64,000 nucleotides of DNA from Elusimicrobiota bacterium (GTDB lineage Bacteria > Elusimicrobiota > Elusimicrobia > UBA1565 > UBA9628). Each line of letters opens with the position of its first letter. The first letter of the stretch is position 1. The position numbers were made by a program, and so were the translations under genes. Below are positions 8,953 through 47,360 of the stretch, in pieces. The notes beneath the pieces were generated by a model. That model ran no database searches, was not told the DNA's origin, and saw nothing but the letters and a program-made list of their open reading frames with translations. Where the stretch lies: positions 44,041 to 108,040 of the forward strand of contig PLZD01000024.1 in the NCBI GenBank assembly GCA_003151975.1, read 5' to 3'.

Positions 8953-11268
8953 CTACCCCTCGTGCCGCTTCCCGGCCGTCTCGATGGTCAGCGCCGCCTT
9001 TAAGTCCTCGCGCGCGACGTTCAAATCTCCCAACGCCGCCGCGGCCTTCGCGCGGACCACGAGCGCCTCCGATTGCCGCGGGTTGGCGGCCAGCGCCTTT
9101 TCCGCGTCGGCGCGCGCGCCCGCGTTGTCGCCCAGCTGGAGCCTCAGCTTGGCGCGCAGGATGTGGACGCGGTCCGCGACCCAGCCGCGCGCCAGCTCCG
9201 CGTCGAAGCCGGCCAGCAGCGCCGCGATCTTCGATTCCTCGGCCCGGCCCGCACCAATGGACTCATTAAGCTTGACCGCCAGGTCGAGGTCGGCCTTCGC
9301 CTCGGGCAATCGTCCCAAATGCCGCCGCGCTTCGCCGCGCAGGGCGTAGACCCACGGCCAACGCGAGCCGGATTCGATCGCCGCGGAGAGCGCCGCTTCC
9401 GCGCGCGTCACGTCGCCGGCCTTCAACGCGCGCTCCCCCTCCCGGAACGGACTCTCCTTGGACGCCCGAACCCGCCGCCGCCCGGGCTTCAAATCGAGCG
9501 CGCCCACCACCGCGAGATCTTTCAAAAGGCGGAACACCTGCCCCTCGACGATGTCGAGCGGCAGCGGCAGGCGGGCGAGCAGGATATCCTTGATCTCTCC
9601 AACGCTGCGCTTGCCGTCGACGAGGCCCAGCATGTCGATGTACGACGAGGGCAGGATCCGCTTCGGGTTCACGGCCTCGCTGGAGGACGGCTTGATCACG
9701 TCGAGCCTTTGAATCGGGCGCAGGCACCCGTTCGCGGAACTCGGCAAGAAGGTCAACGAAAGCTTTCTCTTGAGCCGCCACTTCGGCACGAGCGCGTCGT
9801 CGAGCTTCTCGAGCTTCACCAAACCCTCGGCGCGCTTGATGTTTGCTTTCACGGGACCCTTCTTCAAAAAGCCCGTCTCCACGATGGACAGAATCTGCCG
9901 CGACCACTTCTTGAGCTCGAGCTTGGTGCCCTCCCACTGCCACGAGTGCTCAACGCCGCTGGAACCAAAGAGCAGGCTCTGCGACGTGTAGGAGCGCTCG
10001 AAATGGTAGTTCACGCCGGCCGCGATGGCGATGAAGGCGCCCTTGTCGGAAAGATCCAACGGCGTCCCTTTCGCCAAGACATCCTTCGCCTCGGCCCACC
10101 ACTTGCGCGCGTTGGGGTCGTGGTGATACCAGTAGCGCACGAGGGCGAGGAACGACGACGAGACCTCTTTGCAGTAGCGGCCGTAATCGCGCCACAGCTC
10201 GCGCCGCAGCCCCGCGTCTTTTTCCCGCCACCAGGTGTTGAGCGTGTAGGCCGCGCGGTGCGCCGAGAGGTGCGCCATCATGACGCCCGACGAGAGCAGC
10301 GGATCGATGAAGAACGCCGCGTCCCCGGCCGCCAACCAACCATCACCGCAAGCGGTCCCGTTCATATACGACCAATCGCCCAGCGTGAAGAAATCCTTGT
10401 CGGGGAAAGCCGGATCGACGCCGCGCATCACTTCCGCGTTCTTGAGGAGCGGCCGGATCTCGGCGCAGTCCTTCAGCGCGCCATGGAAAAACTCGCGCAT
10501 GTCCTTGACGCCCTTTTCTTTCACATAAGCCGCCTTCGACACCAAGCCGACCGAGACCATGTCTTTGGACAAGGGGATGTACCAGAACCAGCCTTCCGGT
10601 CGCGAGCAGACGAAGATCTTGGTCTTGTCGGGATGGCCTTGGTACTCGAACTTCCATTTCGCGTTCTTGAAATAGGCGTAGGCCGCGACGTTCTTGAGGT
10701 CCTCGCGATAACGCCTGGTTCGCCGCGCGGCGGAGAGGAAGCCGTTCTGGCCGCTGCAGTCGGCAAGCCACTCGCAAAGGATTTTTTTCTTCTCTCCGCC
10801 CGCGCTTTCCACCACGAGGCCGATGATCTTGCCGCCCTTTTCGATCGGCTCCAGGGCGCGGCCGGAAAAAACCTCCACGCCGATGGACTTGGCGTGGTCG
10901 AGGAGGATCTGGTCGTAGCGCGAGCGCAGGACCTGCCAGGAGAACTCCGTGTCGAGCGCGCGGCCGTACTTCTCGACCATTTCCAGGTTGAGATTATTAA
11001 AGTCGGCGTCCCACGGCTTGCGGTCCCGGCCCCAGACGAAGACGACGCCGATCTTGCGCGGGAAACCGCCCGCGTTGACCTTGTCGAACACGCCCATCTC
11101 TTTCAATACCGGGATGGAGCCCGGCAGCAGCGACTCGCCGACGTGGTGGCGCGGGAACGGGGCTTTCTCGATGACGAGGATTCTCTTCTCCGGGTTGTAT
11201 TTCTTGACGAGCGTAGCCAGCGTCGAGCCCGCGGGGCCGCCGCCGACGACGACGAGGTCGTACCTCAC
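8953..11268 (-). CDS. Flavin-dependent halogenase with PqqD-like and TPR C-terminal regions (halogenase 1)
   Basis: The 771-residue protein starts at a GTG that overlaps the upstream stop (GTGA). It has the FAD-binding GGGPAG loop (residues 9-14) and the GESLLPG segment. A Lys at 72 lies in GGFPRKIGVVFVWG, the place of the catalytic lysine of FADH2-dependent halogenases. The diagnostic WxWxIP motif follows (WFWYIP, 227-232), and later a FIDPLLSSG halide-site loop. The family uses FADH2 and O2 to make HOCl/HOBr and halogenates electron-rich rings such as indole, pyrrole or phenol. Residues about 530-600 (YIDMLGLVDGKRSVGEI) resemble the PqqD/RRE winged-helix fold, and about 602-771 are TPRs. 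It is the last gene of the block. The substrate is unknown; a peptide is suggested by the neighbours. Confidence 0.85.
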   Translation of the reverse strand: MRYDLVVVGGGPAGSTLATLVKKYNPEKRILVIEKAPFPRHHVGESLLPGSIPVLKEMGVFDKVNAGGFPRKIGVVFVWGRDRKPWDADFNNLNLEMVEKYGRALDTEFSWQVLRSRYDQILLDHAKSIGVEVFSGRALEPIEKGGKIIGLVVESAGGEKKKILCEWLADCSGQNGFLSAARRTRRYREDLKNVAAYAYFKNAKWKFEYQGHPDKTKIFVCSRPEGWFWYIPLSKDMVSVGLVSKAAYVKEKGVKDMREFFHGALKDCAEIRPLLKNAEVMRGVDPAFPDKDFFTLGDWSYMNGTACGDGWLAAGDAAFFIDPLLSSGVMMAHLSAHRAAYTLNTWWREKDAGLRRELWRDYGRYCKEVSSSFLALVRYWYHHDPNARKWWAEAKDVLAKGTPLDLSDKGAFIAIAAGVNYHFERSYTSQSLLFGSSGVEHSWQWEGTKLELKKWSRQILSIVETGFLKKGPVKANIKRAEGLVKLEKLDDALVPKWRLKRKLSLTFLPSSANGCLRPIQRLDVIKPSSSEAVNPKRILPSSYIDMLGLVDGKRSVGEIKDILLARLPLPLDIVEGQVFRLLKDLAVVGALDLKPGRRRVRASKESPFREGERALKAGDVTRAEAALSAAIESGSRWPWVYALRGEARRHLGRLPEAKADLDLAVKLNESIGAGRAEESKIAALLAGFDAELARGWVADRVHILRAKLRLQLGDNAGARADAEKALAANPRQSEALVVRAKAAAALGDLNVAREDLKAALTIETAGKRHEG

Positions 11269-13277
11269 GCGCGCCTCGCCTGCTCTCTGAGCCACAACGC
11301 CGGCGCGCAGCCCGGGTCGAGCGTCTCGTCGAGCGCGCGGCTGGCCTCTTCGATCGCGCCCGCGGCGTCGCCGGTGCGCAGTTTGAGCCAGCCGCGGATC
11401 AGGAAAGTCTGTATGTCGCGCCGGCCGCGGGTCTCGCGCTCGAGCACGGACAGCGCCTTGGCGAAATCTCCGTTCGCGAGCGCCCGCTTCGCGCTCCGCG
11501 AGCAGCGGCGCAGCAAGTTGTCCATGGCGAAGAAAGAGCCCGGATCACCCAGTCCCTGCAAGGTCTCGACGGCGCCGCCGTCCACCCGGCGCGCTCCGAC
11601 TTGCCGCACGAGCAAGGCGACGGAATTGCGAGGATTGAGCGCGAGCGCGCGGGAAAGAGAGCGCGCCGCGTCGTTCTTCTGTCCCAGGCGGCCCTCGAGC
11701 CAACCTTTCACGGCCCAAGCCTCGTCGGAACCCGACGCGCCGTTGCCGAGCTGACGCGAGAGCGCCTGGCGCGCGCCGGACCAATCGCCGAGGCGCGCCT
11801 TGGCTTTCCACAGCCACGCGTCGAGCCAATGATCCTGCGGGTGCAGCTCCAACGCCGCCTCGAAGCTCTCCGCCGCGTCGCGAAAGCGTCCCAGCGCGAA
11901 GAGCGCTTGGCCGCGCCAAGCCAACGCCGGGGCGCAATGGCCTTGCAGCTTGAGCGAGCGCTCCAAGGACTTGAGCGCGGCTCGCGCGTCCCCGAGCTTC
12001 AAAAGGCAAAGACCTCGACCGGCGTGCGCCCAGCTCAGGTCCGGGCTCTTTTTCAAGGCGCGGTCGAATTCCTCGAGCGCCGTCGGCCAATCGCCCAAAC
12101 GCCGCAAGGTCTCGCCGCGCCAGACCCGCGCCCATGGATCGGCCGGCGCGAGCGTGAGCGCCGCGTCGAGATCGGACAGAGCCCGCTGGTAGTTCTGCAG
12201 CAAGAGATCGGTTTGGCCGCGCCAGGCCCACGCCCAGGCCGCTTTCGGAAATTTTGTGATGTACCGGTCGAGTTCCCGCAGAGAGCGCAGGGCGGCGGGG
12301 TTGGGATGAGACATGCTGATGCGGTGCTCGATCCAGACGCCGCTGCGGTCGATGTCGGCGGCGGCTTTGAGCGCGTCCGCGGCCTCCTTCCAATTCCCCA
12401 TCTCCATGTGCGACCGTGCCAACGGATAAAGCGTCGTCGGGTAGTAAGGGTTGAGCGCGCGGGCGCGCTCCAATAGCGGCAGGGCTTTTTTCCATTGGCC
12501 GAGCTCGGCGTACGACACGCCCAGCCATGAATAGCCCCGGTCGTAATCGGGCAGCGGCGGGATTGAGCGTTCGAGGTCGGACAGCGCCTTGGGCGTTTTC
12601 TTGAGCACGAACATCGCGCGCCCGCGCCAAGACAGAGCGAATCCGGATTCAGGCGCGAGCTTCAGGGCCTTATCCAAGTCCTTGACCAAGGAGCGGTCGC
12701 GCAGATCGGCCTTGGCTCGCGCCATAAACAAGAGCGGCAGCTCGCTCTTCGGATCGAGTTTCGAGGCGCGCGCGAACTCCGCGACGGAACCGCGAAAGTC
12801 GGCCTGATACCAGCGGCAGATCCCGCGCAGGACATACGGCCAGCTCCAGCGCGGCTCGAGTGCGATGGCGCGATCGAAGCTCCGGATCGCGCGCGTGTAG
12901 CGCCGATGCATCTCGTGGACCATACCGGAAAAAAGATGCGCCCAGGCGCAGGGCGAAGGCTGATCGGCCGCGCGTTCGAAGTCCGCGAGCGATTCCTCGC
13001 TCAGGCGAAGCGAGCCCCAGTAGCGCTCGTGTTTAGTGAGTCCTCGCAAGACGAGCTGTCTCGAGAGCGCGCTCTCCCGGGGATGTTTTCCGGGCGGCGC
13101 CCCCCCGGGGCCAAGCCGGAGCTTGCGTCCCATGTCGAGCAGACCCTCTTCGCCGGCGAGATTGTTCTGCCGGTAGAAAAGAAGCGCGTGACTGATGTAG
13201 CCGCGCCAGACGAGAGCCGCCGGATGCTCGCTTTCGGGGCCGAGCAGGACGTCGAGCCGCTCAGGAGCGGACCGCAT
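11265..13277 (-). CDS. TPR-repeat protein (670 aa)
   Basis: A 670-residue protein of W-rich TPR units throughout, for example ALSDLDAALTLAPADPWARV, ALEEFDRALKKSPDLSWAHA and SLERSLKLQGHCAPALAWRG. No signal peptide or catalytic motif is seen. It overlaps the upstream TPR gene by 17 nt and the downstream halogenase by 4 nt, so its product is made together with halogenase 1. The halogenase itself ends in TPRs, so this protein could bind it or present its substrate; that is inference. The exact start could be any of several in-frame codons near 13277. Confidence 0.78.
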   Translation of the reverse strand: MRSAPERLDVLLGPESEHPAALVWRGYISHALLFYRQNNLAGEEGLLDMGRKLRLGPGGAPPGKHPRESALSRQLVLRGLTKHERYWGSLRLSEESLADFERAADQPSPCAWAHLFSGMVHEMHRRYTRAIRSFDRAIALEPRWSWPYVLRGICRWYQADFRGSVAEFARASKLDPKSELPLLFMARAKADLRDRSLVKDLDKALKLAPESGFALSWRGRAMFVLKKTPKALSDLERSIPPLPDYDRGYSWLGVSYAELGQWKKALPLLERARALNPYYPTTLYPLARSHMEMGNWKEAADALKAAADIDRSGVWIEHRISMSHPNPAALRSLRELDRYITKFPKAAWAWAWRGQTDLLLQNYQRALSDLDAALTLAPADPWARVWRGETLRRLGDWPTALEEFDRALKKSPDLSWAHAGRGLCLLKLGDARAALKSLERSLKLQGHCAPALAWRGQALFALGRFRDAAESFEAALELHPQDHWLDAWLWKAKARLGDWSGARQALSRQLGNGASGSDEAWAVKGWLEGRLGQKNDAARSLSRALALNPRNSVALLVRQVGARRVDGGAVETLQGLGDPGSFFAMDNLLRRCSRSAKRALANGDFAKALSVLERETRGRRDIQTFLIRGWLKLRTGDAAGAIEEASRALDETLDPGCAPALWLREQARRA

Positions 13278-15330
13278 CGGCCTCTCCCAGAAGACGCTCC
13301 AGACTCGAGCGCTGTTCGGGATTGAAGAGATACGGGAAGTCCTTGAGCGCCTTGCGGTAGTCCTCGACGACTTCGCGCTTGCGCCCCGCCTTTTCGTTTA
13401 CCGCGGCACGCACGACGTACCCTCGCCCCATGTTCGGCGCGATCTCGATGCAGCGCTGAGCCGCGTCCAGCGCGGAGGCGGTCTTGCCCAGGGCCAGACG
13501 CGCCTGGGCCATGAGTAGGTAAGCCTCCGGATACTTCCCGTCCAAGAGCAGCGCCCGGTCCAAAAGCTTGACGGCATCACCCGCGCGGCCCCGCGCAAGC
13601 TCAAACTTGGCGCGCAGGTAGTACGCCCACGGCGTCTTGGGCTTCTCCTTCAAAATACGGTCGAGCGTCTTGAAGGCCCCCGACACGTCGCCTGTCGCCG
13701 CCAGCGCCTCGGCGAGCCAGCCGTACGCGTACCAAAACCGCGGCTCCAGCTCCAGGGCTCGCGTCAGATAGCGCGCCGCCGCCGCCGGCTGGCCGGAGTC
13801 GAAAAGGCCCTTGCCGTACCAGCCGTGCGCCAGGACGTGATGCGGATCGAGCGTCACGGCTTGTTCGAAGTCGCGCAGGGCCGCCGGGTTGTCCCACATC
13901 TCGAGCTTGAGCTGCCCCCGCCAGACGCGCAGTGACGCAACGTTCGGATTGGCGCGGATCGCGCGGTCGAGTTCCGCCAGCCCCTTCGCGAGATCGGCCT
14001 TGCTCGGCTCGCTGCCGGTCTTGAACACCCATCGATAGCGATGGTCCAGAAAAAAAGCCTGGTCGAGGTCGAAGGCGGCGCCGGCGTGATCGCCCAGCGC
14101 CCGGCGCACGAGCGACCGCTCGTGATAGGTCAGGCTGTAGTACGGGTCCATGGCGATCGCGCGGTCGAGATCGGCCAAAGCCTCCGGAAAGCGCGCCATC
14201 TTCCTATATAAAGACCCCCGCCACACGAAGGCGCGGTGATAATACGGCTGAAGCCGGATGGAGGAGCCGAAGTCCTTCAGAGCGCCCTCGAAGTCCCCGG
14301 TCACTCGGCGCGCGTTGGCCCGCCAGGCGTAGAACCAGCCCGCGTGGGGAGCGGCGCGAATCGCGCGGGTCAGGTGCCGCACTCCCTCCGGGAAGCCGCC
14401 GGCGGTGTAGCAGGCCGCGCGGCCGAAAAAAGCGTGCGCCCAAGCCAGCCCTCGGTTCTCGGAGGCCAGGCGGGAGACGAAGCTGTAATCCTCGGCGGGG
14501 AAATGCGAGAAGTGGGACTGCGTGGCCTCGCGGCGATAGTAGGCGCCGACGGTCTCGGGGTGCGCGAAGACGAAGCGCAGGATCTTCCGGATGTAGGCGG
14601 GCGACTCGACCTTGAAGGTCTGGTGGATCTGCAAAGTGATGAAGCCCAGCACCGGGCTGACGTTGTAGGCGTCGCGCATCAGAGACGCGCGCTGGCGTTG
14701 GGTCGGGGCGAGGCGGCAGGAGAGCAGATAAGCGGCCGAGCAAACGGGATTGGCCTTCGCGGCAGCTGCGTAAGCTTTCATAGCGGCCGGCCGCAGCCCG
14801 TCTTTCTCGAGACAGCGCCCGAGCAGAAGCCAGCCCAGCGCGCTTTTCGGCTTGAGCTTTAGGGCGGTCTCGAGGTCTTTCCTCGCGTCGGCTGTTTTTC
14901 CCTTCAGGAAGAACGCGGCGGCGCGGTAGAGAAAGGCCCACCAGAGCTTCCCATCGAGCTCCAACGCCCGAGAGAGGCTCGCCTCCGCCTCGGGCCGCTT
15001 GAGGTCGAGCTCGCCAAGCCAGGCGTGCGCCGCGGCCAGGTTCGGCTCGAGGTCCAAGGCCGCCTTCAGATCCTCGGCGGCGCCGTTAAGGTCGCCCAGA
15101 AGCCTCCGAATGCGGCCGCGCGCCGCCAAAGAACCGGCGGCGGGCGATTTCGCGATCGCGAGGTCGGCGGCCTCGTAGGCCTTCAGCAGTTCGGGGTTGT
15201 GGAGCTTCCGGAAATACGAAAGCTCGTATTCGGGGACGTGCGGCAGGCCGAAGCGCAGGCTCAGGTCCTCGAGCTTCTCGCTTTGTCCCAGCTTCTCCAG
15301 CGTCTCGATCCCATTCAAAGCGCGGGCCAT
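13261..15330 (-). CDS. TPR-repeat protein, copy 1 of a tandem paralog trio (689 aa)
   Basis: A 689-residue TPR protein. The N-terminus (LEKLGQSEKLEDLSLRFGLPHVPEYELSYF, given here as overlapping landmarks LGQSEKLEDL and VPEYELSYF) matches the two genes at 16179-18230 and 18227-20263. All three then share a SLAARGRIRRLLGD block, a mid-protein block with a RYRWVFKTGSEP-type insertion between TPRs, and a C-terminus ending PYLFN-x-EQ/QQKR. They are therefore recent tandem duplicates. The secreted Cys-rich gene 15343-16182 is inserted between this copy and the others. This is one of the few genes in the block that does not overlap its upstream neighbour, and a possible promoter precedes it. Confidence 0.8.
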   Translation of the reverse strand: MARALNGIETLEKLGQSEKLEDLSLRFGLPHVPEYELSYFRKLHNPELLKAYEAADLAIAKSPAAGSLAARGRIRRLLGDLNGAAEDLKAALDLEPNLAAAHAWLGELDLKRPEAEASLSRALELDGKLWWAFLYRAAAFFLKGKTADARKDLETALKLKPKSALGWLLLGRCLEKDGLRPAAMKAYAAAAKANPVCSAAYLLSCRLAPTQRQRASLMRDAYNVSPVLGFITLQIHQTFKVESPAYIRKILRFVFAHPETVGAYYRREATQSHFSHFPAEDYSFVSRLASENRGLAWAHAFFGRAACYTAGGFPEGVRHLTRAIRAAPHAGWFYAWRANARRVTGDFEGALKDFGSSIRLQPYYHRAFVWRGSLYRKMARFPEALADLDRAIAMDPYYSLTYHERSLVRRALGDHAGAAFDLDQAFFLDHRYRWVFKTGSEPSKADLAKGLAELDRAIRANPNVASLRVWRGQLKLEMWDNPAALRDFEQAVTLDPHHVLAHGWYGKGLFDSGQPAAAARYLTRALELEPRFWYAYGWLAEALAATGDVSGAFKTLDRILKEKPKTPWAYYLRAKFELARGRAGDAVKLLDRALLLDGKYPEAYLLMAQARLALGKTASALDAAQRCIEIAPNMGRGYVVRAAVNEKAGRKREVVEDYRKALKDFPYLFNPEQRSSLERLLGEADAVRS

Positions 15331-15337
15331 ACCGAAT

Positions 15338-15366
15338 ACTATCTAATTTGGCCGCGTCCCGTTCAA
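15338..15366 (-). promoter_or_regulatory. Possible internal promoter before the 13-kb TPR/halogenase part
   Basis: On the minus strand TTGAAC (15366-15361), 17 nt and GATAGT (15343-15338) are followed by 7 nt and the ATG at 15330. The match is only moderate, but it sits at one of the few non-overlapping junctions of the block and has the same spacing to the start codon as the other promoters here. Confidence 0.45.
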
Positions 15367-16182
15367 GGGCTCGAGCGGGGCGCGGAGCATCTTCCACTCG
15401 TCTGCCTTGAGAGTAAGCGTCGGGAAGACGTCGTCGCAAAAGGACTTCACCGCCGCGCGGCCGGGCTCCTCGCAGGATTTCTCTCCTTTGAACAAGGCCT
15501 CGCACATCAGGTCGTATTTTTGGCAGCGCGCGGGATCTCCGGCCTTGAGCGCGGCCAGGGCCGCGGCTTTCATCCGGCACTCGCCCTGCAGTTTCTTGAG
15601 CGCCACGAGCCCGCAAGCCTCATCGCCTAGGAGATAATTGAAATAGCCGCGCTTTGCGATCTCGGGATGCTTGGGCCATTCCTGACGCCCGCTCTTGTAA
15701 ATGGCGCGAGCGGCCTCGGCGAAATCCTCGGGCGAGATCCCCTTCTCGCCGTAGAGCATGCGGCGCGCGTAGGGCACGAGCTCCTCCAACGGCCGGTCCT
15801 CGACCAGAGCCTTGAGCAAAAGATAGCCCGCCGCGCGCGATGTGCACACTCCGTACTCATAGGTGAAGTGAATCTTGCCGTCGCTCTTGACGTACGTGTA
15901 TTTCTTCTCCGGCGCGCCCTCCTTCGAGAGTTTCCCGCGCGGCTTGGGCCCGCCGGGAAAGTAATCGCAGAGATCGTCATCTTTGCTGACGACCTCCATG
16001 CAGGTCGCGTAATCGTAGAGCCCCTGGCGCGAGGCGGGACCGTATTGATGCAGGACCATCTTCTCCGGCGTGATCCAGCGCAGGCAGTAATCGCGCTTCT
16101 CTATAACGCTTAATTTGTCCGGCGCGGTCTCGGCGTGCGCTCCCGCGAGGGCCCAAAACAAACAGAGCGTTGCGATCTTCAT
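15343..16182 (-). CDS. Secreted Cys-rich protein of unknown function
   Basis: A 279-residue protein with a short signal peptide (MKIATLCLFWALAGAHA). The mature part has about ten cysteines, several in CxxxxxxxC-like pairs, including CQKYDLMCEALFKGEKSCEE. This resembles the CRAM-x-G-x-AC motifs of the peroxidase C-terminus and of the lipoprotein at 3252-4289. The start overlaps the stop of the upstream TPR gene (ATGA), so it belongs to the block even though its product should be exported. It may act on, carry or sense the exported product of the cluster, but nothing in the sequence shows which. Confidence 0.7.
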   Translation of the reverse strand: MKIATLCLFWALAGAHAETAPDKLSVIEKRDYCLRWITPEKMVLHQYGPASRQGLYDYATCMEVVSKDDDLCDYFPGGPKPRGKLSKEGAPEKKYTYVKSDGKIHFTYEYGVCTSRAAGYLLLKALVEDRPLEELVPYARRMLYGEKGISPEDFAEAARAIYKSGRQEWPKHPEIAKRGYFNYLLGDEACGLVALKKLQGECRMKAAALAALKAGDPARCQKYDLMCEALFKGEKSCEEPGRAAVKSFCDDVFPTLTLKADEWKMLRAPLEPLNGTRPN

Positions 16183-35368: not shown

Positions 35369-35389
35369 GGGCTCAGCCTCATCGCAGTT

Positions 35390-35851: not shown

Positions 35852-35859
35852 TCTATTCT

Positions 35860-35865
35860 CCTCCT
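35860..35865 (-). promoter_or_regulatory. Strong Shine-Dalgarno sequence of the hxsA-like gene
   Basis: The coding strand reads AGGAGG, 8 nt before the ATG, overlapping the stop codon of hxsB1. Most other genes of the block have no comparable site and start inside the preceding gene. High independent translation fits a substrate peptide needed in excess over its enzymes. Confidence 0.75.
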
Positions 35866-39322: not shown

Positions 39323-39849
39323 CTCTTCCCCCCCTTCAGTTTGGCTTCCTGCTTCTCCTCCCAGGAGGCTTTGATGTTCTTGGGATCGGGCACGGACTTG
39401 GAGGCGTTCATTGATTTGATCTCATCCTCCACTTCGGCGATGAGCTTCTCGATCTCGGCGCGCTGCTCGTCGTTGAGCTGCTCGGAGGCGGGCTCGGGAG
39501 CCGCGGCGGAAGCGGGAGGGATGCGGCCGTTGGCCAGCAATACGGCCTGCTCGGAGATGTATTCGCGGATGGGCTGATTGTTCTTCGCGATGGCCCAGCG
39601 CACCTTCTGCGTCGCGAGCTCGGCGGTGAAGGCGGCGGACAGCTCCTTGAGACGGGCCGCCGTCGCGCCGGCCTTGGGGGTCAAGGTCACGGCGATCTTC
39701 TTGGCGCGGTCGCCGTCGAGAGAAACGAACGCGCGGTCCATCATCAGGTAAGCAGCGCCCAGAATCGGCTCGAGGCCGTTGGCGGGCACGCTGAGATCGA
39801 AGGATATTGAAGCGGCAGAAGGCTTGGGCGTCGTGATTTTCTTGGGCAC
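39319..39849 (-). CDS. hxsD: HxsD-like protein 2 (176 aa)
   Basis: I choose the GTG at 39849 as start. ATG codons at 39900-39903 would lie upstream of the predicted transcription start of the promoter at 39891-39919, while the GTG has AAGGA 5 nt before it. The 176 residues show the HxsD pattern: SISFDLS strand, AAYLMMDRAFVSLDGD, LSAAFTAELATQKVRW and a following helix. The C-terminal half is a charged, Ala/Glu/Lys-rich helix (LNDEQRAEIEKLIAEVEDEI), longer than in typical HxsD. It is the first gene of the transcript that contains hxsB1, hxsB2 and the precursor. Confidence 0.75.
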   Translation of the reverse strand: MPKKITTPKPSAASISFDLSVPANGLEPILGAAYLMMDRAFVSLDGDRAKKIAVTLTPKAGATAARLKELSAAFTAELATQKVRWAIAKNNQPIREYISEQAVLLANGRIPPASAAAPEPASEQLNDEQRAEIEKLIAEVEDEIKSMNASKSVPDPKNIKASWEEKQEAKLKGGKS

Positions 39850-39890
39850 GGGAATCCTTATACTAAATTTTCTTTCCTTAATTAATAGCC

Positions 39891-39919
39891 AGTTTAACAT
39901 CAATAATGTGGAATGTCAA
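39891..39919 (-). promoter_or_regulatory. Internal promoter of the active HXS half
   Basis: On the minus strand TTGACA (39919-39914), a 17-nt spacer and TAAACT (39896-39891) lie in the only AT-rich gap of the block (39850-39974). The leader downstream is about 40 nt, AT-rich, with AAGGA before the GTG start at 39849. This gap separates the degenerate HXS half from the half with the precursor, so the two can be regulated independently. Confidence 0.75.
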
Positions 39920-39934
39920 TGGGGGCATAAATGG

Positions 39935-39962: not shown

Positions 39963-39974
39963 GTTGCTGGGGGC

Positions 39975-41204
39975 TCAGGAGAGCCATTGGCGCAAAGCTT
40001 CCGCCGATTCCGTTCTGGCCAAACGCGAGAAGAGGATATCGAGTAGGGCCATGTGCAGCGCGCAGCGCTCGCTGGAGGGGTGCCTGCCCCAAAGCGTGCC
40101 TTGGGATCGGAGATTCTCCGAGGGAGCGACCGCGCAGAAAGGCCGGTACACGCACTGGGAGCACATCGGCTGGTTTTCCGAGAGGGAGGCCGCCAGCACC
40201 GCGCGGACGGCCGGACCCTTCGCGAGGTCGTCAAAGCGCCGCGAACCCAGCTCGCCCAGCTTGAGAAGATCCCGGGCTTCCTCATCGAGGCTCGCGGCCA
40301 GCTCCCCGGAATAGATCGAGCCGTCGGGCGCGTAGCAGAGCTCGGAAAGCACGTCGTGCCCCGGCAGCAGCCAGCGCCTGCCGCTTAAAAAACCCAGCCC
40401 GCGTTCCTCGCGCATGTCGCGGCGCCCTTGCAGCTGCAGCATGCGGTCGAGCGCCGCCGCGTAGAACGCGAGAAAATCCTTCGCCGAGCCCGAGGGCTCG
40501 AGCAGAATCGACTCGACGCCCGCCTCACTCAGCGCGTCGATCCAGCCGGACGCGGCTTCCGCGGGCGCGTTGACCCGCGCGAGAACGCGCCGCGCGCCCG
40601 GCACCGCGACCGACGGCGGGCCCGCGATCTCGACGACAGCGCGCAAGTCGACGCGATGGCCGTCGAGGAATTCCTTCATGCGCGCGGGAAGCGCCGCCTC
40701 GACGCGCACCGTGAGGCTGACGGCCTTCTTGCGCCACTCGCCTTGCCTCCGGGCGTATTGAACGATGAACCAGACCAGCCCCCACTCGCTCTCGAGGCGC
40801 TCGGGAATGAGCTCCAGACCAACGTCGCGGGCGGGCGCCGAGAACGCGAAGTCGACCGCGCGCTTGGCCGTCGCGAGGCTCATCGCGCGACCCGCCGCGC
40901 CAAGCTTGAGCAGATGCGTCGAGGGACCCGGCCACGACAGCAGGCTTTTCTCGGCCGCGAAGCGCGCGGCCTCGTCGAAATCAAAGGAATCGCTCATGAG
41001 CCCCGCTATCGCAAGCTTGTCGCGCAAGGCGGTGCCGCGCTTGAGGCCTTTGAGGTAGCCGAGATATTCGGCCTGGGATAAAAACGCGAAGCGGCCGGAG
41101 TCGTCGCAGGCCAGCACGAATTTCCCGATCCTACGGAATTGATGCGGACCGACGCTTTTGAGCGCGGGCTTGGGCGGCTTGTCGATCTCGGTCAGCCGGC
41201 TCAC
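39975..41204 (-). CDS. Degenerate HxsB-like protein without radical SAM cysteines (409 aa)
   Basis: A 409-residue protein clearly homologous to hxsB1/hxsB2: the N-terminal domain (RRIGKFVLACDDSGRFAFLS), WPGPSTHLLKL, TAKRAVDFAFSAP and WFIVQYARRQGEWRKK align in order. An in-frame deletion of about 20 residues after HLLKL (around residue 100) removes the whole CxxxCxxC segment, and the GGEP motif has become IPERL. The C-terminal SPASM-like cysteines are kept (LCYAPDGSIYSGE, MCSQCVYRPFC, CALHM). It therefore cannot bind the SAM cluster but may keep an auxiliary cluster and peptide binding, suggesting a non-catalytic partner. The frame is intact, so it is not a simple pseudogene. Confidence 0.82.
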   Translation of the reverse strand: MSRLTEIDKPPKPALKSVGPHQFRRIGKFVLACDDSGRFAFLSQAEYLGYLKGLKRGTALRDKLAIAGLMSDSFDFDEAARFAAEKSLLSWPGPSTHLLKLGAAGRAMSLATAKRAVDFAFSAPARDVGLELIPERLESEWGLVWFIVQYARRQGEWRKKAVSLTVRVEAALPARMKEFLDGHRVDLRAVVEIAGPPSVAVPGARRVLARVNAPAEAASGWIDALSEAGVESILLEPSGSAKDFLAFYAAALDRMLQLQGRRDMREERGLGFLSGRRWLLPGHDVLSELCYAPDGSIYSGELAASLDEEARDLLKLGELGSRRFDDLAKGPAVRAVLAASLSENQPMCSQCVYRPFCAVAPSENLRSQGTLWGRHPSSERCALHMALLDILFSRLARTESAEALRQWLS

Positions 41205-41608
41205 GGCAGGAGTTTCCTCGCCGCTTTCAGAAGTTCTTCGGTCTCAGTCTCGCGGTCGACGCGAACCTGCGGCTCGAGCTGCTCGAGCGGATCGGGCGGC
41301 AGCGCGGGAAACCCTTTCTCGAGGACTTGCGCCAGCAGGGCCTGCGGAACTTCCGGCGCGGATTTGATGAGCTCTTGCCGGTACAGACAGGAGAGGCATT
41401 CATTGAGAAACTCGCCGGCCAGCGCGCGCAGCTCGAGCTCGGTCATGGGAACGGCGGGCTTGAGCTCGACGCGAAAAGCGCCGCGTTTCTCGTCGAGAAA
41501 CGCCTCCGCGCGCCCCGAGAGCAGCAACGCGCCCATGCGCAGGCTCTCGACGGTGTACGGGGGCTTCGGCAGCGAGATCGAAGCGACCCCGTCTTCGATC
41601 TCGATCAC
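41201..41608 (-). CDS. hxsD: HxsD-like protein 3 (135 aa)
   Basis: A 135-residue protein from a GTG start preceded by a purine-rich GAGGGGGGAAA stretch and overlapping the upstream stop (GTGA). The HxsD pattern is present (VASISLPKPPYTVESLRMGA, GRAEAFLDEKRGAFRVELKP, LAGEFLNECLSCLYRQELIK). It is of the GEF-x-NE subtype, like hxsD1. Upstream of the degenerate HxsB-like gene it forms the unit D4-D3-B3, which parallels D2-B2-D1-B1 downstream and points to an old block duplication. Confidence 0.72.
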   Translation of the reverse strand: MIEIEDGVASISLPKPPYTVESLRMGALLLSGRAEAFLDEKRGAFRVELKPAVPMTELELRALAGEFLNECLSCLYRQELIKSAPEVPQALLAQVLEKGFPALPPDPLEQLEPQVRVDRETETEELLKAARKLLP

Positions 41609-42039
41609 TTTCCCCCCTCGCGCAGGTTTGCCCAGTAACGCGTGATTCCGAGCGGATCCTTCGGGCCCTTGTCGGCCTCGGCCTCCGCGAGCAGGCGCGC
41701 GATTTCGCCGAGCTGCTCGGGCGGCAAAGTCCCTTGCGCCGAGGCGGGACGGCCGCCCGACTCCCTGCAAAGCTCGAGCGCTCGGCGCAGGACGTCGGCA
41801 CGGATGCCGCGATTGGCGCGCGCCACGCTCCAGCGCAGCAGCTGGTTGGCGTAATCTCGCTTGAACGCGGCCGCCAATTTCGCCGATCCGGATTTCGGAA
41901 GGAGCGTCACGGTCCAATCGACGCCTTTGCGCCGGACCTCGGCATAGGCGACATCCATGGAGAGATAGGCCGCGCCAAGGAAGGCCAAGGCGTCGGCGCC
42001 CTTGATCGTGAGGCTCTCAGGCTTTGACGGGGCTTTCAT
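41605..42039 (-). CDS. hxsD: HxsD-like protein 4 (144 aa)
   Basis: A 144-residue protein overlapping its upstream neighbour by 23 nt. It has the HxsD pattern in the subtype of hxsD2: SLTIKGADALAFLGAAYLSMDVAYAEVRRK, here abbreviated as AAYLSMDVAY, then AAAFKRDYANQLLRWSVARA. Its C-terminal helix ends LGITRYWANLREGGK. It probably acts with the HxsD3/HxsB3 pair. The biochemical role of HxsD proteins is unknown. Confidence 0.7.
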   Translation of the reverse strand: MKAPSKPESLTIKGADALAFLGAAYLSMDVAYAEVRRKGVDWTVTLLPKSGSAKLAAAFKRDYANQLLRWSVARANRGIRADVLRRALELCRESGGRPASAQGTLPPEQLGEIARLLAEAEADKGPKDPLGITRYWANLREGGK

Positions 42040-42979
42040 CGACGGAGACGACGGGGTGGTAGGGATCGCCCGAAAGCTCGACGGGGCGCTCGACGGTGAT
42101 GGGTTCGATGTCCGGGGCGCTCATGTGTTTTTGATAGCTGCGATGGACGCCCACGCATTGCTCGCGGTAGAGGCACTTGGTGCGGCAGCCTTCGAGATAA
42201 GTGACCTTGAAGCCCGCCAAGGTGTTCCAGACGAACGGCCACAAGCGCGTGGGCACGGTGCAGAGCGCGAAGTGGTACATGCGCGCGTCCTTGAACTTGA
42301 GGAGCTTCTCGTAGTTGCGGTCGATGTGCGCGGCGCACTCGGACTGCGTGAACTTCAATTGGTCCCGGTACTGCTCCGCGAACCCTTCGATCTCCTCGAA
42401 GAGAAAGACGACGCGGTCGATCCACGGGAATTCGGCGAGCAGAAAATCGAGCAGCCCGTCGAGATAGCGCGCCTGAATCTTGGTCATGATGATGCGGATC
42501 TCCACGACCTGGCCCGGCTTGCGGTGCTTATGGAGGTGGCGCAAGCCCTGCGTCGTCTGCTCGAAGCTCAGGGGCGTTCTGGATATGCTTTCGTGAGTTC
42601 TCGCGTCATAACCGAACATCGGCACGGCGATCTCGAAAGGAAGCTGACCGATCCCGCAGGTGCGGCGCGCGAAGTCCTCGTAGGCGAACATGCGGCCGTT
42701 GGACAGCAGGCGGATGAGGTTGCGCGGGAACTCGGTGCGGATCAGGGCGAGGATCTTGAGGAAGTCGGGGTGGATCGTCGGCTCGCCGCCCGTCAGATTG
42801 AAATAGTCGCGGACCTCGTCGAATTTCACGAAGGTGCGCAAGCCCCTTTTATAATCTTCGAGTTTTTTCTTTATGTCGTCGAAGCCGTAGCGCCCCGTCG
42901 TGTCGCGGAATCCCTCGACGGGATTGGAGCAGAACACGCAGGCGATGTTGCACTGCGGCCACAGCGGGAAATCAGGCAT
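42017..42979 (-). CDS. hxsC: HxsC-like radical SAM protein (320 aa)
   Basis: A 320-residue protein with a very short N-terminus before CNIACVFC (Cys10, 14, 17), TGGEPTIHPDF and a C-terminal cysteine group CRTKCLYREQCVGVHRSY. Its place next to HxsD and HxsB-like genes and its length fit HxsC, the second radical SAM enzyme of the HXS system. A generic radical SAM protein of the same group as its upstream neighbours remains possible. It overlaps both neighbours (8 and 23 nt). Confidence 0.7.
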   Translation of the reverse strand: MPDFPLWPQCNIACVFCSNPVEGFRDTTGRYGFDDIKKKLEDYKRGLRTFVKFDEVRDYFNLTGGEPTIHPDFLKILALIRTEFPRNLIRLLSNGRMFAYEDFARRTCGIGQLPFEIAVPMFGYDARTHESISRTPLSFEQTTQGLRHLHKHRKPGQVVEIRIIMTKIQARYLDGLLDFLLAEFPWIDRVVFLFEEIEGFAEQYRDQLKFTQSECAAHIDRNYEKLLKFKDARMYHFALCTVPTRLWPFVWNTLAGFKVTYLEGCRTKCLYREQCVGVHRSYQKHMSAPDIEPITVERPVELSGDPYHPVVSVDESPVKA

Positions 42980-43961
42980 TCAGCTTGACCACCGGCGTGA
43001 GCTCTTCGTCGCCGTACTGGCGGATGTACTCCTTCCAAAGGCCCTCGCAGGAGTCGTAGAGCGAACAACCCGTGCAGCGCTCGGTCTTGCGGCGGCCGGC
43101 GACCTTCCGGGAAGGGCCCACATCCTCATTCTTGAAATCGGGCGCCCAGTGGCGCGTGCGGAAGAGCTCGATCTCGCGGATCTCGGAGATTTGGTCGAGG
43201 TAGTCGGTGAAATAGCACAACGGCACGTAGCGCACGCACCAGTCGCGCGTGCCCCAGGCGCGGCCCACGTCGAGCAGCTCGCGCATGTAAGGCGCGGCCT
43301 CGGAGATTTTCGGGACCAATCCCTTAAAGTTTGTGTAGGCGCCGCCGTAAGTCGAATCGACGAAAATAAATTCGGCATGATGGATGTTGAGTTCCGTGAA
43401 AAGTTTGCCGATTGCGGGCAGGTGCTTCATGTTCTGCTTGACCACCGTGCAGTTGGCGAAGATGCGCTCAAAGCCCAGCGCCCGGACGTTCTCGATGCCC
43501 TTCACGAGCTCGTCGAAGGCGCCCTTGGCGGCGGTCAGCTCGTCGTGGAGCTTGGCGTTGTGGCCGTGGATGGAGAAGATCAGATCCGAGACGCCCGCCT
43601 CGACGGTTTGCTTGGCGAAATCGGGATAGGAGAGCATGCGGCCGTTGGTCACGACGACGATGTCCTTGAAGCCGAGTTTCTTGGCCGTCCGAATGATCGG
43701 CAGGAAATCGCCGCGCACCGTCGTCTCGCCGCCGATGAGCTCCAGGTATTCGACGCCCTTGCCTCGCGCCTGCACCATCTCCGTGATGATCTGCTGGGTC
43801 GACTTGTCGGGCAGGTCGCGCTTGTTGAGGTCGATGCAAAACGAGCAATAACTGTTGCAGGAGAAGCCCGTGAACAGAACGAGCTTCTGGATCTTGCCCG
43901 TGCCAGGGCGCGGGACGTGCTGCTCGGCTATGCCGGTACCGGCGCCTTTTTCATTGACCAC
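42972..43961 (-). CDS. Radical SAM protein (329 aa)
   Basis: The start is a GTG with GAAAGGA 9 nt upstream, inside the end of the upstream gene (34-nt overlap). The 329-residue protein has CNSYCSFC (Cys35, 39, 42), IGGETTVRGDF in place of GGEP, FSIHGHNAKLHDELT, and a C-terminal CTGCSLYDSCEGLWKEY group that may hold an auxiliary cluster. It belongs to the same group as 43928-45217, 46491-47360, 28491-29447 and the fusion. All share the SxHxH/A-x-x-x-x-HD segment and a Cys-x-x-Cys-x(5-6)-Cys tail. The substrate is unknown. Confidence 0.82.
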   Translation of the reverse strand: MVNEKGAGTGIAEQHVPRPGTGKIQKLVLFTGFSCNSYCSFCIDLNKRDLPDKSTQQIITEMVQARGKGVEYLELIGGETTVRGDFLPIIRTAKKLGFKDIVVVTNGRMLSYPDFAKQTVEAGVSDLIFSIHGHNAKLHDELTAAKGAFDELVKGIENVRALGFERIFANCTVVKQNMKHLPAIGKLFTELNIHHAEFIFVDSTYGGAYTNFKGLVPKISEAAPYMRELLDVGRAWGTRDWCVRYVPLCYFTDYLDQISEIREIELFRTRHWAPDFKNEDVGPSRKVAGRRKTERCTGCSLYDSCEGLWKEYIRQYGDEELTPVVKLNA

Positions 43962-45217
43962 AAATATTTTCCTTTCGTGAACTTGCGCTCGACGAGGCCC
44001 ATCTTGATGAGGGTCTCGGCGGCGTTGATGACGGCGTTTTCGTCCTTGCAGTCCTTGCAAAGCGGCAGTTCCTCGGCGATATCCAAGAACGCCTTGGTGG
44101 TGAGCGGCGACTTGATCTTGAGCACCTCGAGCACGCACTGCTCGTTGTCGGTCAGGATGGCCTTGCCGTTATGGAAGCGGCCTTCGCCTTGCTGCTGGCG
44201 CATGCCCGCGTCGTAGCGCTCCGGGACCTCGAGCAAGGGCTTGATCTCATCGGTGCCGAAGACGCGCGCGTAGCTCGCGTCCCAGCCGATGCAGCGGTCG
44301 TTGTAGACGCACTTCTTGCAGTCGTCGGTCTTGAGCGTGTGCGACGCCGCGGTCATGTCGAGGTCGCGCTTCTCGCCGCGCGGGTTGACGACCATCGTGT
44401 TGAACGCCGACCAACCGAGCATCTGCTGCTCGTAGCCCGGCAGCACGCACGGCGTGAAGTGCAGCAGCAGAGGAGGCTTGGGGTAATTGATCTTCGTGAA
44501 GACCTCGTAGGCCTTCTTGATGTAAGGCGCCATGTCGGTGATCTTCGCGCCGATCTTCGCGCCCTTGACGTCGTTGAGCTGCATGTTGCCTTCGTACAGC
44601 GGGGCGATGATCACGAAGTTCGACAGCTGCAGCTTCAACAGAAAGAGCTCGTAGAATTCGACGAGGTGCTTGTAGTTCCAATCGTTGAGCACGATGTTGA
44701 CGCCGATGCCCACGTGGAGCTTCTGCAGATTCTCGATCGACTTAAGGCACTTGTCGAACGCGCCGGGGATGCCGACGAGCTTGTCGTGCAGTTCGGCGGT
44801 GTGGCCGTGAATCGAGTATTTGACGAAGGTCAGCCCCGCCTTGGCCAGCGTCTCGACGTAGTCGAAGTTCGCGATGCGCACGCCGTTGGTCTGTATCCGC
44901 ACGTAGGTGTAGCCGATCTTCTTAGCCAGCGCGATGAACTTGGGCAGGTCGGCGCGGATCGTGGGCTCGCCGCCCGTGAAGCCCAAGCGGCGATAGCCGT
45001 TCTTGTACGCGAGGTACATGTGCTCGACGACCTTGTCGAAGGCCAGATCGTTGGGCTCCTTGCGCCACTCGAAATCCTGCGAGCAGAACAGGCACTTCGC
45101 GTTGCAATTATAGTTTAGCAGGATGTCGAAGCACTTCGGCTCGTCGAAGGCCGAGCGGTCGGCGTGCTCGTCGACCTTCTCGATCTTGATGAGTTCCGTC
45201 TCGATGCGCAGGGCCAT
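43928..45217 (-). CDS. Radical SAM protein with C-terminal winged-helix-like domain (429 aa)
   Basis: A 429-residue protein, start overlapping the desulfurase stop (TGATG). The motif is CNAKCLFC (Cys38, 42, 45), with TGGEPTIRADLPKF and FVKYSIHGHTAELHDKLV. The auxiliary group is CKKCVYNDRCIGWDASY. About 85 more residues follow (EQCVLEVLKIKSPLTTKAFL, INAAETLIKMGLVERKF), which look like a winged helix. This could bind a leader peptide (RRE-like), a protein or DNA. The extra domain is absent from its radical SAM neighbours. Confidence 0.82.
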   Translation of the reverse strand: MALRIETELIKIEKVDEHADRSAFDEPKCFDILLNYNCNAKCLFCSQDFEWRKEPNDLAFDKVVEHMYLAYKNGYRRLGFTGGEPTIRADLPKFIALAKKIGYTYVRIQTNGVRIANFDYVETLAKAGLTFVKYSIHGHTAELHDKLVGIPGAFDKCLKSIENLQKLHVGIGVNIVLNDWNYKHLVEFYELFLLKLQLSNFVIIAPLYEGNMQLNDVKGAKIGAKITDMAPYIKKAYEVFTKINYPKPPLLLHFTPCVLPGYEQQMLGWSAFNTMVVNPRGEKRDLDMTAASHTLKTDDCKKCVYNDRCIGWDASYARVFGTDEIKPLLEVPERYDAGMRQQQGEGRFHNGKAILTDNEQCVLEVLKIKSPLTTKAFLDIAEELPLCKDCKDENAVINAAETLIKMGLVERKFTKGKYLWSMKKAPVPA

Positions 45218-46494
45218 CAGGAGCAGGCCTCCTTGGCGTAAGACTTGAGCGCGCCGACGAAAAGGTCGACTTCGTCGGCGGTGTTGTAAGCGAAAAAAGA
45301 CGCGCGAACGGTGCCGTCGAGCTTGAGGCTTTGGTGTAGGAGGTGCGCGCAATGCTCGCCGGCGCGGACCGCGACGAAACGGTCGCCGAGTTCGTGATTC
45401 AGGTACAGATTAAAATCAGTGACCGAAAATTCTTTATGGACCGGGTAAAACGAGACCAAAGAACCGTCCGCGAGGTCATCGGCCTTGCCGAGCACCTTGA
45501 CCTCGGGAATCTCGTCGATCGCCTCCGCGGCCCGCTTGACCAACGAAGAGATGTGCGCGCGCAGCGGCGCCGCGGGGATCGTTTTCAAGAAACGCACGGC
45601 TTCGGTCAGCGCGGGATAAGCCGAAAAATTGGAAACGCCGGCCTCGAAGCGCATTGGGGCGTCCAGATAAACGACCTCCGGCATGCCCTTGCCGCTCCAC
45701 TTCACCGATTTCACGACGCCCCCGCCGACCTTGTAGTGGCGCAGGCGGTTGAGCTCGACTTCCTTCCCGTAAAGCACGCCCAGGCCGAACGGGCCTCCGA
45801 TCTTGTGGGCCGAGAACGCGACGAAGTCGGCGTTGAGAGTCTGCACGTCCTCGCGGTGAGAGGCGACGAACTGTGCGTCGTCGACGAGCACGCGCGCGCC
45901 GCGCCCATGCGCGTGGCGCACGATCTCCGCCAGCGGCTGCACTCCGCCCGCGACGTTGGAGGCGTGCGTGATCGCCACTAACGCGGTCTTGTCGCCCACG
46001 AGCTTGGCAAGCTCGTCCGGATCGACGCGGCCGTTCTTGCTGCGGCAAATCTTGAGCTCGATCTCCTTGCGCTGCGCCGCCTCGTAGAACGGAAGAAAGA
46101 CCGCGTTGTGCTCGAGGTCGGTCAGCACGACCTCGCGGCGCTCGTCAAACGGGAAGGCGCGCGCGACGAGGTTGACGGCTTCGGTCGTGCCGGAAGTGAA
46201 GACGATCTCGTTGGCCGACTCCGCGTTGAGGAAATCCGCGGCGGCCTGGCGCGCCTTGATGAGCTCGGCCTCGACGGCCTGCGCGAGCAGATGCGTCGAG
46301 CGCTTGCCGCCGCAGCCTCCGAGCTCGCGGTAGAAACTCGCGGCGGCCTCGCCCACGCCGGCGGACTTGAGAGCCGTGCAGGCGCTGTCAAGATAAACAA
46401 GCTTTTTGCCGCCGAAGTCCCGCTGCAAAACGGGGAACTCTCGGCGGATGGCGTCCACCGAGAACGAAGGCTTGACCGTCGAGGCCGACGTCAT
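45217..46494 (-). CDS. Cysteine desulfurase, SufS-like (class V aminotransferase)
   Basis: A 425-residue PLP enzyme whose ATG overlaps the upstream stop (ATGA). Landmarks are YLDSACTALKS, SGTTEAVN, LEHNAVFLPF, VDDAQ (normally VDGAQ) and the PLP lysine in FSAHKIGGPFG (Lys231). The catalytic Cys382 lies in RAGEHCAHLLHQ, as in group II desulfurases (RxGHHCAxP). It takes sulfur from cysteine (or Se from selenocysteine) and passes it on. In a block with a dozen radical SAM proteins it may feed their Fe-S clusters, but no SufBCD, IscU or SufE/U partner is in the window. A role in adding sulfur to the peptide is also possible. Confidence 0.87.
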   Translation of the reverse strand: MTSASTVKPSFSVDAIRREFPVLQRDFGGKKLVYLDSACTALKSAGVGEAAASFYRELGGCGGKRSTHLLAQAVEAELIKARQAAADFLNAESANEIVFTSGTTEAVNLVARAFPFDERREVVLTDLEHNAVFLPFYEAAQRKEIELKICRSKNGRVDPDELAKLVGDKTALVAITHASNVAGGVQPLAEIVRHAHGRGARVLVDDAQFVASHREDVQTLNADFVAFSAHKIGGPFGLGVLYGKEVELNRLRHYKVGGGVVKSVKWSGKGMPEVVYLDAPMRFEAGVSNFSAYPALTEAVRFLKTIPAAPLRAHISSLVKRAAEAIDEIPEVKVLGKADDLADGSLVSFYPVHKEFSVTDFNLYLNHELGDRFVAVRAGEHCAHLLHQSLKLDGTVRASFFAYNTADEVDLFVGALKSYAKEACS

Positions 46495-47360
46495 ACGTGG
46501 ACTCCCTCGAACTCGCGGATGGGCCGCACCTCGGTCAGCTCGCCGTAGATCTCTTGGTAGTCGCGGCGCGGGCCCGGACAAAGATCGTGCATCACGCAGG
46601 CCCGGCAATCGTCGACCTGCTTCTTCTCGGCGAGGTGCACGCCCTTCTTGGCGTCGCGCATCTTGCGGTAATCGGCGTGGTGCTCTTTGTAATCGACGAC
46701 GTAGCAGACGGGAATGTGGTCCACGTCGAATTCGATCCCGAGCTCGACGCACGCCTTGAAGGCGGCGTTCAAGAAGGGTGCTGCGTCAGAGAACTTGGGC
46801 ATGACTTGGCGGCTGCCCTTGGCGCGGCCCATGCCCTTGCAGTAGCTGAACTGGATCCACGCGAAGGGCCCCAGCGTTTTCTTGGCGAAGCGCACGAACT
46901 CCTCGGCGTGGCGGTAGTTGTTCTCGTGGACGATGTAGTTGATGCGGACCTTGGCGCCGAGCGAATGCAGGAGAGTGATCCCATCGATGCGCCGCGAGAA
47001 GCCCTCGACGCCGGTGACCTCCTCGTCGAGCTCGGGCGTGTGGGCGGAGAAGTTGATGTTGAAGAAATCGACGAGCTTGACGATGAGCCCGAGGCGCTTG
47101 GGGTTGTAGCGCGTGATAATCGTGCCGTTGGTCTGGAACTCGATGATCTTGCCCTTCTTGCGGCAGTGCAGGAGGATCTCGAGCAGCTCGGCGGGGTCCT
47201 TGATCATCGGGTCGCCGCCCGAGATTTGGACGTGGCCGGTTTTGTCGCGGTCTATTTGGTCGAGGAGGTAGGCGAGTTCAAAGGTGCCGCTGCGGCCCTC
47301 GGCGGAACAGAACACGCATTTGATGTTGCAGACACCATTGATCGGCAGGTGAAGCGCCAT
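46491..47360 (-). CDS. Radical SAM protein, first gene of the 38-kb block (289 aa)
   Basis: A 289-residue protein with CNIKCVFC (Cys11, 15, 18), ISGGDPMIKD in place of GGEP, and a C-terminal CRACVMHDLCPGPRRDY group. The middle has NINFSAHTPELDEEVTG, like the other members of this radical SAM group. A weak promoter with a TATAGT -10 box lies 8 nt upstream of the ATG. As first gene it defines the upstream border of the block. Confidence 0.82.
   Translation of the reverse strand: MALHLPINGVCNIKCVFCSAEGRSGTFELAYLLDQIDRDKTGHVQISGGDPMIKDPAELLEILLHCRKKGKIIEFQTNGTIITRYNPKRLGLIVKLVDFFNINFSAHTPELDEEVTGVEGFSRRIDGITLLHSLGAKVRINYIVHENNYRHAEEFVRFAKKTLGPFAWIQFSYCKGMGRAKGSRQVMPKFSDAAPFLNAAFKACVELGIEFDVDHIPVCYVVDYKEHHADYRKMRDAKKGVHLAEKKQVDDCRACVMHDLCPGPRRDYQEIYGELTEVRPIREFEGVHV

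Follow-up and report, generated by a model that had tools for sequence, protein, structure and literature searches.

The window, a stretch of 64,000 nucleotides from an Elusimicrobiota bacterium, belongs to contig 27 of a draft genome of 4.64 Mb that is assembled into 68 contigs, and carries a long block of genes related to the His-Xaa-Ser (HXS) peptide system. Between 8953 and 47360 a gene caller that relies on codon usage and was trained on homologous genes predicts exactly 29 minus-strand genes; 23 of the 28 gene junctions overlap, 13 of them by exactly 4 bp, and the junctions range from -34 to +125 bp. The block codes for 12 radical S-adenosylmethionine (SAM)-type proteins (11 with a CxxxCxxC motif, which is absent in the one termed HxsB3), eight proteins made up of tetratricopeptide repeats (TPRs) only, four HxsD-like proteins, one HxsA-like precursor, two halogenases, one desulfurase and one exported-looking Cys-rich protein. 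Further TPR stretches occur in a TPR-radical SAM fusion and in the tail of the halogenase HALO1. Scans against NCBIfam and Pfam match this inventory, with HxsA4, two full HxsB, HxsD-, HxsC/HxsC4- and PapB-like proteins, a SufS-type desulfurase and two CmlS-type halogenases. A first-pass annotation, made from the sequence, had listed the same contents and counts, which the gene call bears out; its 5' edge fell one gene short, the YYPAP gene being the first of the predicted unit. It had further described the block as a greatly expanded HXS relative, a view supported by the conservation of the block as a unit with its precursor, HxsB, HxsD-like and HxsC-like genes. The assembly is not due to chance, because gene order is largely kept at the corresponding loci of three relatives (G002, G019 and G026), with protein identities mostly of 36-91%.

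The precursor passes the curated HxsA4 model and contains a tract of 22 GSH units with a His at every third residue. Several synonymous DNA versions of the unit occur, so that the tract is under constraint at the protein level. Read by eye, the HxsA4 proteins have in common an FLSSEEG-like leader, a hydrophobic stretch whose end lies close to AxA, and a tract of xSH units. The tail CRGGWC[CN]PRC is found in all nine complete precursors of the window's cluster type, and a tenth occurs in G043c414; precursors in other clusters end in GQW, GSW, GAW, GSY, FSF or GSGT, plus two in [SQ]RGGWC. Where both precursor types occur in one genome, as is the case in several, the tail tracks the cluster and not the genome. 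The sister family (G045, G047 and G053) has the core genes together with a precursor whose tail is FSF. HxsA4 is also near-universal in the family of G095 (f15), where 50 of 59 genomes give a match at E<=1e-8.

Both full HxsB proteins score above the cut-off of TIGR03978. The best HxsC match in the block (151.9 bits) does not reach the curated cut-off of 267.9, and for HxsC4 (NF038332, cut-off 500) the best scores are 134 bits in the block and 192 in another, shorter HXS operon that this genome also carries. A divergent HxsC homologue is nonetheless present, and we hence file the block as a variant and not as a canonical HXS cassette. The HxsD model TIGR03976 matches three of the four HxsD-like proteins (45.0, 38 and 22 bits, cut-off 50). 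The remaining one, D4, has no match to this model and is related to HxsD1 by profile comparison (99.4%, with 96.9% for D3); on these model matches and profile comparisons, all four HxsD-like proteins are related.

The third HxsB-like protein, HxsB3, matches the HxsB model only over its C-terminal SPASM part in the family scan, and TIGR03978 matches all 13 rows of its alignment. The CxxxCxxC loop is absent in 11 of 11 HxsB3 rows and four cysteines of the SPASM region are invariant; an open reading frame (ORF) alignment agrees for the rows that span the region, which the G037 row does not reach. The structure model of HxsB3 (pLDDT 86.3) comes closest to 5why, a thioether-forming sactipeptide maturase (E 1e-11, TM 0.59 of query, rmsd 8.8), and to anSME. 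HxsB3 is likely to be a pseudoenzyme, and we infer that it serves as a non-catalytic, substrate-handling subunit. The loss of the cluster motif from one radical SAM-type protein, along with the arrays of HxsC4-like enzymes that many relatives carry, would also fit the idea that some of the twelve are decaying duplicates or act on unrelated cofactors, the size of the block reflecting gene amplification and not a single pathway. However, two families retain an HxsB3 whose SPASM cysteines are intact, and C5, SufS, C4b, C4a, C, B1 and B2 are 60-85% identical at the G002, G019, G030 and G033 loci where called (SufS is uncalled at G030 and G033), which argues against decay; we regard amplification as quite improbable. 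HxsB3, D3 and D4 are 34-56% identical to the window proteins at the G002, G030, G033, G045 and G047 loci, and the HxsB3 of G019 is absent from the gene calls and present as an ORF.

The precursor tails were compared with the presence of the three PapB-like radical SAM enzymes, PB1, PB2 and PB3. In a discovery set of 45 parsed precursors, less four that were truncated or frameshifted, 11/11 precursors with an RGGWC tail have a PB2 relative scoring 100 bits or more within 9 kb, versus 0/30 with other tails (Fisher 3e-10, ignoring shared descent). When any relative of PB1-3 of at least 90 bits is counted, the figures are 11/11 and 1/30, the sole exception being G047c33, which has another tail and a PB3 match of 193 bits. 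A held-out set consisted of 37 stretches, 33 from f15 and four from f1/f2, and thus nearly all from another family; 20 more f15 places lie outside this set. The first precursor pattern failed in 13 of these, and a looser one, applied to 11 of the 13, recovered nine; G049c72 (no precursor), G024c10 (a spurious frame only) and the contig remainders G228c60b and G007c62b were not counted. Here the PB2 rule at 100 bits or more holds in six of ten RGGWC loci and in none of 25 others, and the wider rule in 10/10 versus 0/25, at a threshold of 90 bits chosen after looking at the held-out result and with loci related by descent, which makes the counts interdependent. In several cluster contexts, then, the Cys-bearing RGGWC tail is accompanied by a gene for a PapB-like radical SAM protein, and these enzymes are predicted to act on the tail of the precursor. 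In the window the three score under the PapB cut-off (best 136 bits versus 340).

Comparison across the phylum shows how far the arrangement extends. Close C4b orthologues (at least 590 bits, with a frameshifted one in G037 added) are present in 17 of the 340 phylum genomes, 12 from the family of the window and five from the sister family, and 45 further genomes, all of f15, have only more distant matches. The core (C5-SufS to HxsA-PB3-PB2) is seen in about a dozen genomes of the family. The full arrangement lies on one contig in G002 and G019 and on two in G026, with the order largely kept: TPRh and TPRe are missing from G002, in which TPRc and TPRd have traded places, G019 carries a HALO2-kind halogenase on the opposite strand only, and G026 has one on each strand. 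The block consists of two modules, the core and a TPR/halogenase module that some relatives appear to lack. G030, G033, G035, G041 and G042 hold core genes and no halogenase at E<=1e-30, bar one match of 33% identity in G030, among at most 18 scored candidates per genome and in assemblies that are 73-97% complete. G037 carries its halogenase gene, along with those for Cx2, PB1 and the TPR proteins, downstream of the core and on the other strand. These two observations make the halogenases accessory. They also answer in part whether the HXS core exists in relatives apart from these neighbors, on which the first-pass annotation had staked its case: the halogenase/TPR part is separable.

The way in which the block is read was approached through promoter-like sites. 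P1 ends 20 bp upstream of the YYPAP gene, and P2 sits upstream of HxsD2 in the sole internal gap of more than 26 bp; a similar site lies directly upstream of the peroxiredoxin-like gene beyond the 3' end. The motif was derived from the window's own sites before the relatives were scanned, and gives 33 matches in 1.73 Mb of related loci. Counted by hand in clusters with the window's gene set and a CRGGWC tail, which we label type IV, it precedes HxsD2 in 9/9 clusters that hold the 5' end of D2 and the YYPAP gene in 7/9 (not in G030 and G033). Because it recurs before these two genes, we predict two coupled transcripts as likely, one of YYPAP-C5-SufS-C4b-C4a-C-D3-D4-B3 and one running from D2-B2-D1-B1-A-PB3-PB2 onward to HALO1. 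The block holds together as one conserved unit, and would be transcribed as two messages rather than one. The separability of the modules raises the possibility of two neighboring systems, in which the core from C5 to PB2 makes the HxsA4 peptide and the TPR/halogenase/radical SAM module likely works on another substrate and comes after the core by chance. The core-only relatives and the inverted module of G037 speak for such a split. On the other hand, the order is kept at the three relatives' loci, the overlapping genes continue into the module, and a single promoter-like site is listed on the minus strand between P2 and the end of the block (25990-25963, inside HALO2; 28300-29999 lay outside the scan). 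We consider this separation unlikely.

Both halogenases pass the Trp_halogenase model PF04820 (99.6 and 106 bits, cut-off 21). HALO1 aligns over its catalytic part to 3e1t, which we take to be CndH, and to PltA and CmlS, with 8zop also among the best solved relatives; the conserved motif positions include GFPRK opposite the GFPIK of 3e1t. Full-length HALO1 is found in four of 56 genomes of the order, and among 120 listed database relatives 56 match it over 97-100% of its length at an identity of at least 59%. PqqD-type domains recognize the leader in other peptide pathways. Of 43 halogenase relatives, 12 match the PqqD-like domain PF05402 somewhere along the protein (E<=0.1, best 2.8e-5), and a scan of the two window halogenases gave no such match. 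Halogenases on the opposite strand inside the TPR run are seen at G026:C53:81256-83040 (L050) and G019:C114:41832-43112 (L126). Among the TPR proteins, TPRa, b, f, g and i have reciprocal best hits in all three relatives (G002, G019 and G026), TPRe in two, and TPRh, c and d in one.

Exported-looking proteins accompany these clusters. The window genome has three TTYYPAP proteins, one beside each of its two HXS loci; those of the window and of G000:C57:148368-148589 look exported. Of 28 YYPAP-type proteins counted by hand across nine genomes, 14 have an HXS cluster no more than ~13 kb away, including the G026:C92 copy, which adjoins C5 and SufS on a contig without a precursor. For f15 precursors a YYPAP match lies within 9 kb of 9/9 with RGGWC tails versus 1/25 with GSY/GSGY tails, at low scores of 26-109 bits. 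This linkage, the His at every third residue across 22 units, and the lack of any recognized resistance or transporter gene in the block would also suit a structural or metal-binding surface polymer. In that case the repeats, rich in His, would likely bind metal, and the desulfurase and radical SAM enzymes would build a metal site or an anchor into the peptide instead of making a diffusible metabolite. The GSY-tailed f15 loci are mostly without a YYPAP neighbor within 9 kb, which counts against it; we hold such a polymer to be less likely than not. The Cys-rich protein encoded at 15343-16182 matches no Pfam family at E<=1 and none of the genes called at the syntenic G002, G019 and G026 loci (whole genomes were not searched). 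Secreted-looking proteins of ~270-440 aa with at least nine cysteines, e.g., L035:16575-17636, recur beside HXS clusters with little mutual similarity, a sample biased by its selection on cysteine count.

With respect to known systems, the block shares with the HXS system (NF038313, TIGR03978, TIGR03977, TIGR03976 and NF038332) an HxsA4-type precursor, two HxsB above the cut-off and adjoining HxsD- and HxsC-like genes. It differs in its HxsC, HxsC4 and HxsD scores and adds the motif-less third HxsB-like protein, four HxsD-like and six HxsC/HxsC4/MoaA-like proteins, three PapB-like enzymes, the SufS-type desulfurase, two halogenases and the TPR array. The best family for PB1, PB2 and PB3 is that of the PapB-type ranthipeptide maturases (NF047865), from which they are set apart by their low scores and by a block precursor of the HxsA4 type; the precursor of PapB is a PapA-type peptide, unlike HxsA4. 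In contrast to its solved relatives of the CmlS/CndH/PltA type, the block halogenase has a long C-terminal extension with a TPR tail and is encoded in an HXS cluster. The second operon of the genome (G000:C57, L035:4587-18574, ~134.6-148.6 kb) resembles the block in having YYPAP, HxsD-like, HxsB and HxsA4 genes with five HxsC4/HxsC-like radical SAM genes. It differs in its GQW tail, its single HxsB, a PB2 match of 76 bits only and the absence of any HALO2 match in the 9 kb around its precursor, and it also codes for an A24 leader-peptidase-like protein and a B12-binding radical SAM protein. A passage of PMC9062424 states that the maturation of HXS motif peptides putatively depends on HxsB and HxsC. 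The block had been called a system without a described counterpart. A literature search on HXS, radical SAM and related subjects indeed found no paper on this gene make-up; as to its kind, the block does have described counterparts, since NCBIfam already names HxsA4 and HxsB as families. What is new is the combination of two HxsB with a motif-less HxsB, PapB-like tail enzymes, halogenases and a TPR array.

The reading that we favor, at slightly better than an even chance, is a peptide maturation line of an expanded HXS type, expressed as two coupled transcripts. The gene set likely makes one heavily modified, predicted-exported peptide, since relatives keep it largely in the same order, and we commit to a modified, exported surface or secreted peptide as its predicted product. 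The HxsD proteins and the N-terminal regions of HxsB would probably bind the conserved leader, and HxsB1/B2 together with the HxsC-like enzymes would modify the GSH tract, with HxsB3 and HxsD3/D4 forming the putative non-catalytic subunit. PB2, PB3 and perhaps PB1 could work on the tail with its cysteines, where thioether links would be a plausible outcome. The accessory halogenases might modify an aromatic residue, for example the Trp of the tail, and the TPR proteins may organize the complex. The product would be exported via the hydrophobic AxA-ended segment between leader and repeats, and may act at the cell surface together with the YYPAP protein.

Several of the results given above weigh against this maturation line: the HxsC, HxsC4, HxsD and PapB scores are all under the curated cut-offs, HALO1 and HALO2 gave no match to the PqqD-like domain, some core-bearing relatives have no halogenase match and the module is inverted in G037, so that the halogenases may have another role, and the promoter motif came from the window itself. 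So do the G047c33 exception, the four held-out RGGWC loci missed by PB2, the later choice of threshold and the shared descent of the loci. To these may be added that HxsD has no clear relative among solved structures and that no transporter or leader protease was recognized among the block genes by NCBIfam and Pfam (Pfam only for the TPR-only genes and 15343-16182). More tentatively, and with a chance somewhat short of even, we propose that the precursor has two zones: a fixed GSH tract served by an HxsB/C/D complex that includes a deliberately inactivated HxsB, and an exchangeable tail (CRGGWCxPRC, RGGWC, GQW, GSY or FSF) that predicts the tail enzymes, with PapB-like crosslinking, optional halogenation and a dedicated TPR scaffold. 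No described pathway would be like it.

Table 1. Coordinates of the genes and promoter-like sites of the block, from its 5' to its 3' border
Feature	Position in window	Strand	Basis
P1 promoter-like site	48440..48468	-	TTGACA-17-TATACT, extended -10, 11/12 matches; consensus match only
YYPAP, exported-looking TTYYPAP-motif protein	47418..48419	-	first gene of predicted unit
C5, radical SAM, HxsC-like	46491..47360	-	68.8 bits, cut-off 267.9
SufS-type cysteine desulfurase	45217..46494	-	334.8 bits, cut-off 475.1; PF00266 (Aminotran_5)
C4b, radical SAM, nearest HxsC4, extra C-terminal region	43928..45217	-	120 bits, cut-off 500
C4a, radical SAM, nearest HxsC4	42972..43961	-	134 bits
C, radical SAM, nearest HxsC	42017..42979	-	151.9 bits, cut-off 267.9
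D3, HxsD-like	41605..42039	-	TIGR03976, 22 bits; profile comparison 96.9%
D4, HxsD-like	41201..41608	-	profile comparison 99.4%
B3 (HxsB3), HxsB-derived, likely pseudoenzyme; CxxxCxxC absent, SPASM cysteines present	39975..41204	-	alignments, TIGR03978, structure model
P2 promoter-like site before HxsD2	39891..39919	-	TTGACA-17-TAAACT, extended -10; consensus match
D2, HxsD-like	39319..39849	-	TIGR03976, 38 bits
B2, HxsB	37790..39292	-	489 bits, cut-off 370
D1, HxsD-like, ferredoxin-like fold predicted	37308..37790	-	TIGR03976 match, structure prediction
B1, HxsB	35864..37315	-	430 bits, cut-off 370
A, HxsA4 precursor, 22 GSH units, tail CRGGWCCPRC	35390..35851	-	NF038313, 111 bits, cut-off 55
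PB3, PapB-like radical SAM	34265..35368	-	136 bits, cut-off 340
PB2, PapB-like radical SAM	33163..34287	-	105 bits, cut-off 340
TPRi-CX3, TPR array fused to HxsC4-like radical SAM	29444..33178	-	family scans
Cx2, radical SAM, MoaA/HxsC4-like	28491..29447	-	family scan
PB1, PapB-like radical SAM	27463..28494	-	103 bits, cut-off 340
TPRh	26331..27479	-	Pfam TPR, reciprocal hits
HALO2, flavin-dependent halogenase, CmlS-like	24580..26334	-	family scans
TPRg	22991..24583	-	Pfam TPR, reciprocal hits
TPRf	21447..22994	-	Pfam TPR, reciprocal hits
TPRe	20260..21450	-	Pfam TPR, reciprocal hits
TPRd	18227..20263	-	Pfam TPR, reciprocal hits
TPRc	16179..18230	-	Pfam TPR, reciprocal hits
Exported-looking Cys-rich protein	15343..16182	-	no match among genes at relatives' syntenic loci
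TPRb	13261..15330	-	Pfam TPR, reciprocal hits
TPRa	11265..13277	-	Pfam TPR, reciprocal hits
HALO1, flavin-dependent halogenase with TPR tail, last gene	8953..11268	-	family scans, alignment to solved relatives
Promoter-like site of next gene, marks 3' border	8897..8925	-	adjoins peroxiredoxin-like gene 8342-8890 (by sequence)

Outside the block, the flank (1174-4289 on the plus strand and 5421-8342 on the minus strand) codes for three further proteins. One contains two haem-type CxxCH motifs, one is Cys-rich and shows weak similarity to a protein encoded next to a different HXS cluster, and one is a TPR protein of 973 aa and a relative of TPRg (314 bits).

With this block, halogenases join the contents of a radical SAM peptide cluster, and its conserved motif-less radical SAM protein offers a probe of the handling of repeat substrates. 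The block and its relatives form a natural comparative series, in which short and long clusters share one precursor family with matched tails and enzymes, and which makes the assignment of enzyme to substrate directly testable.

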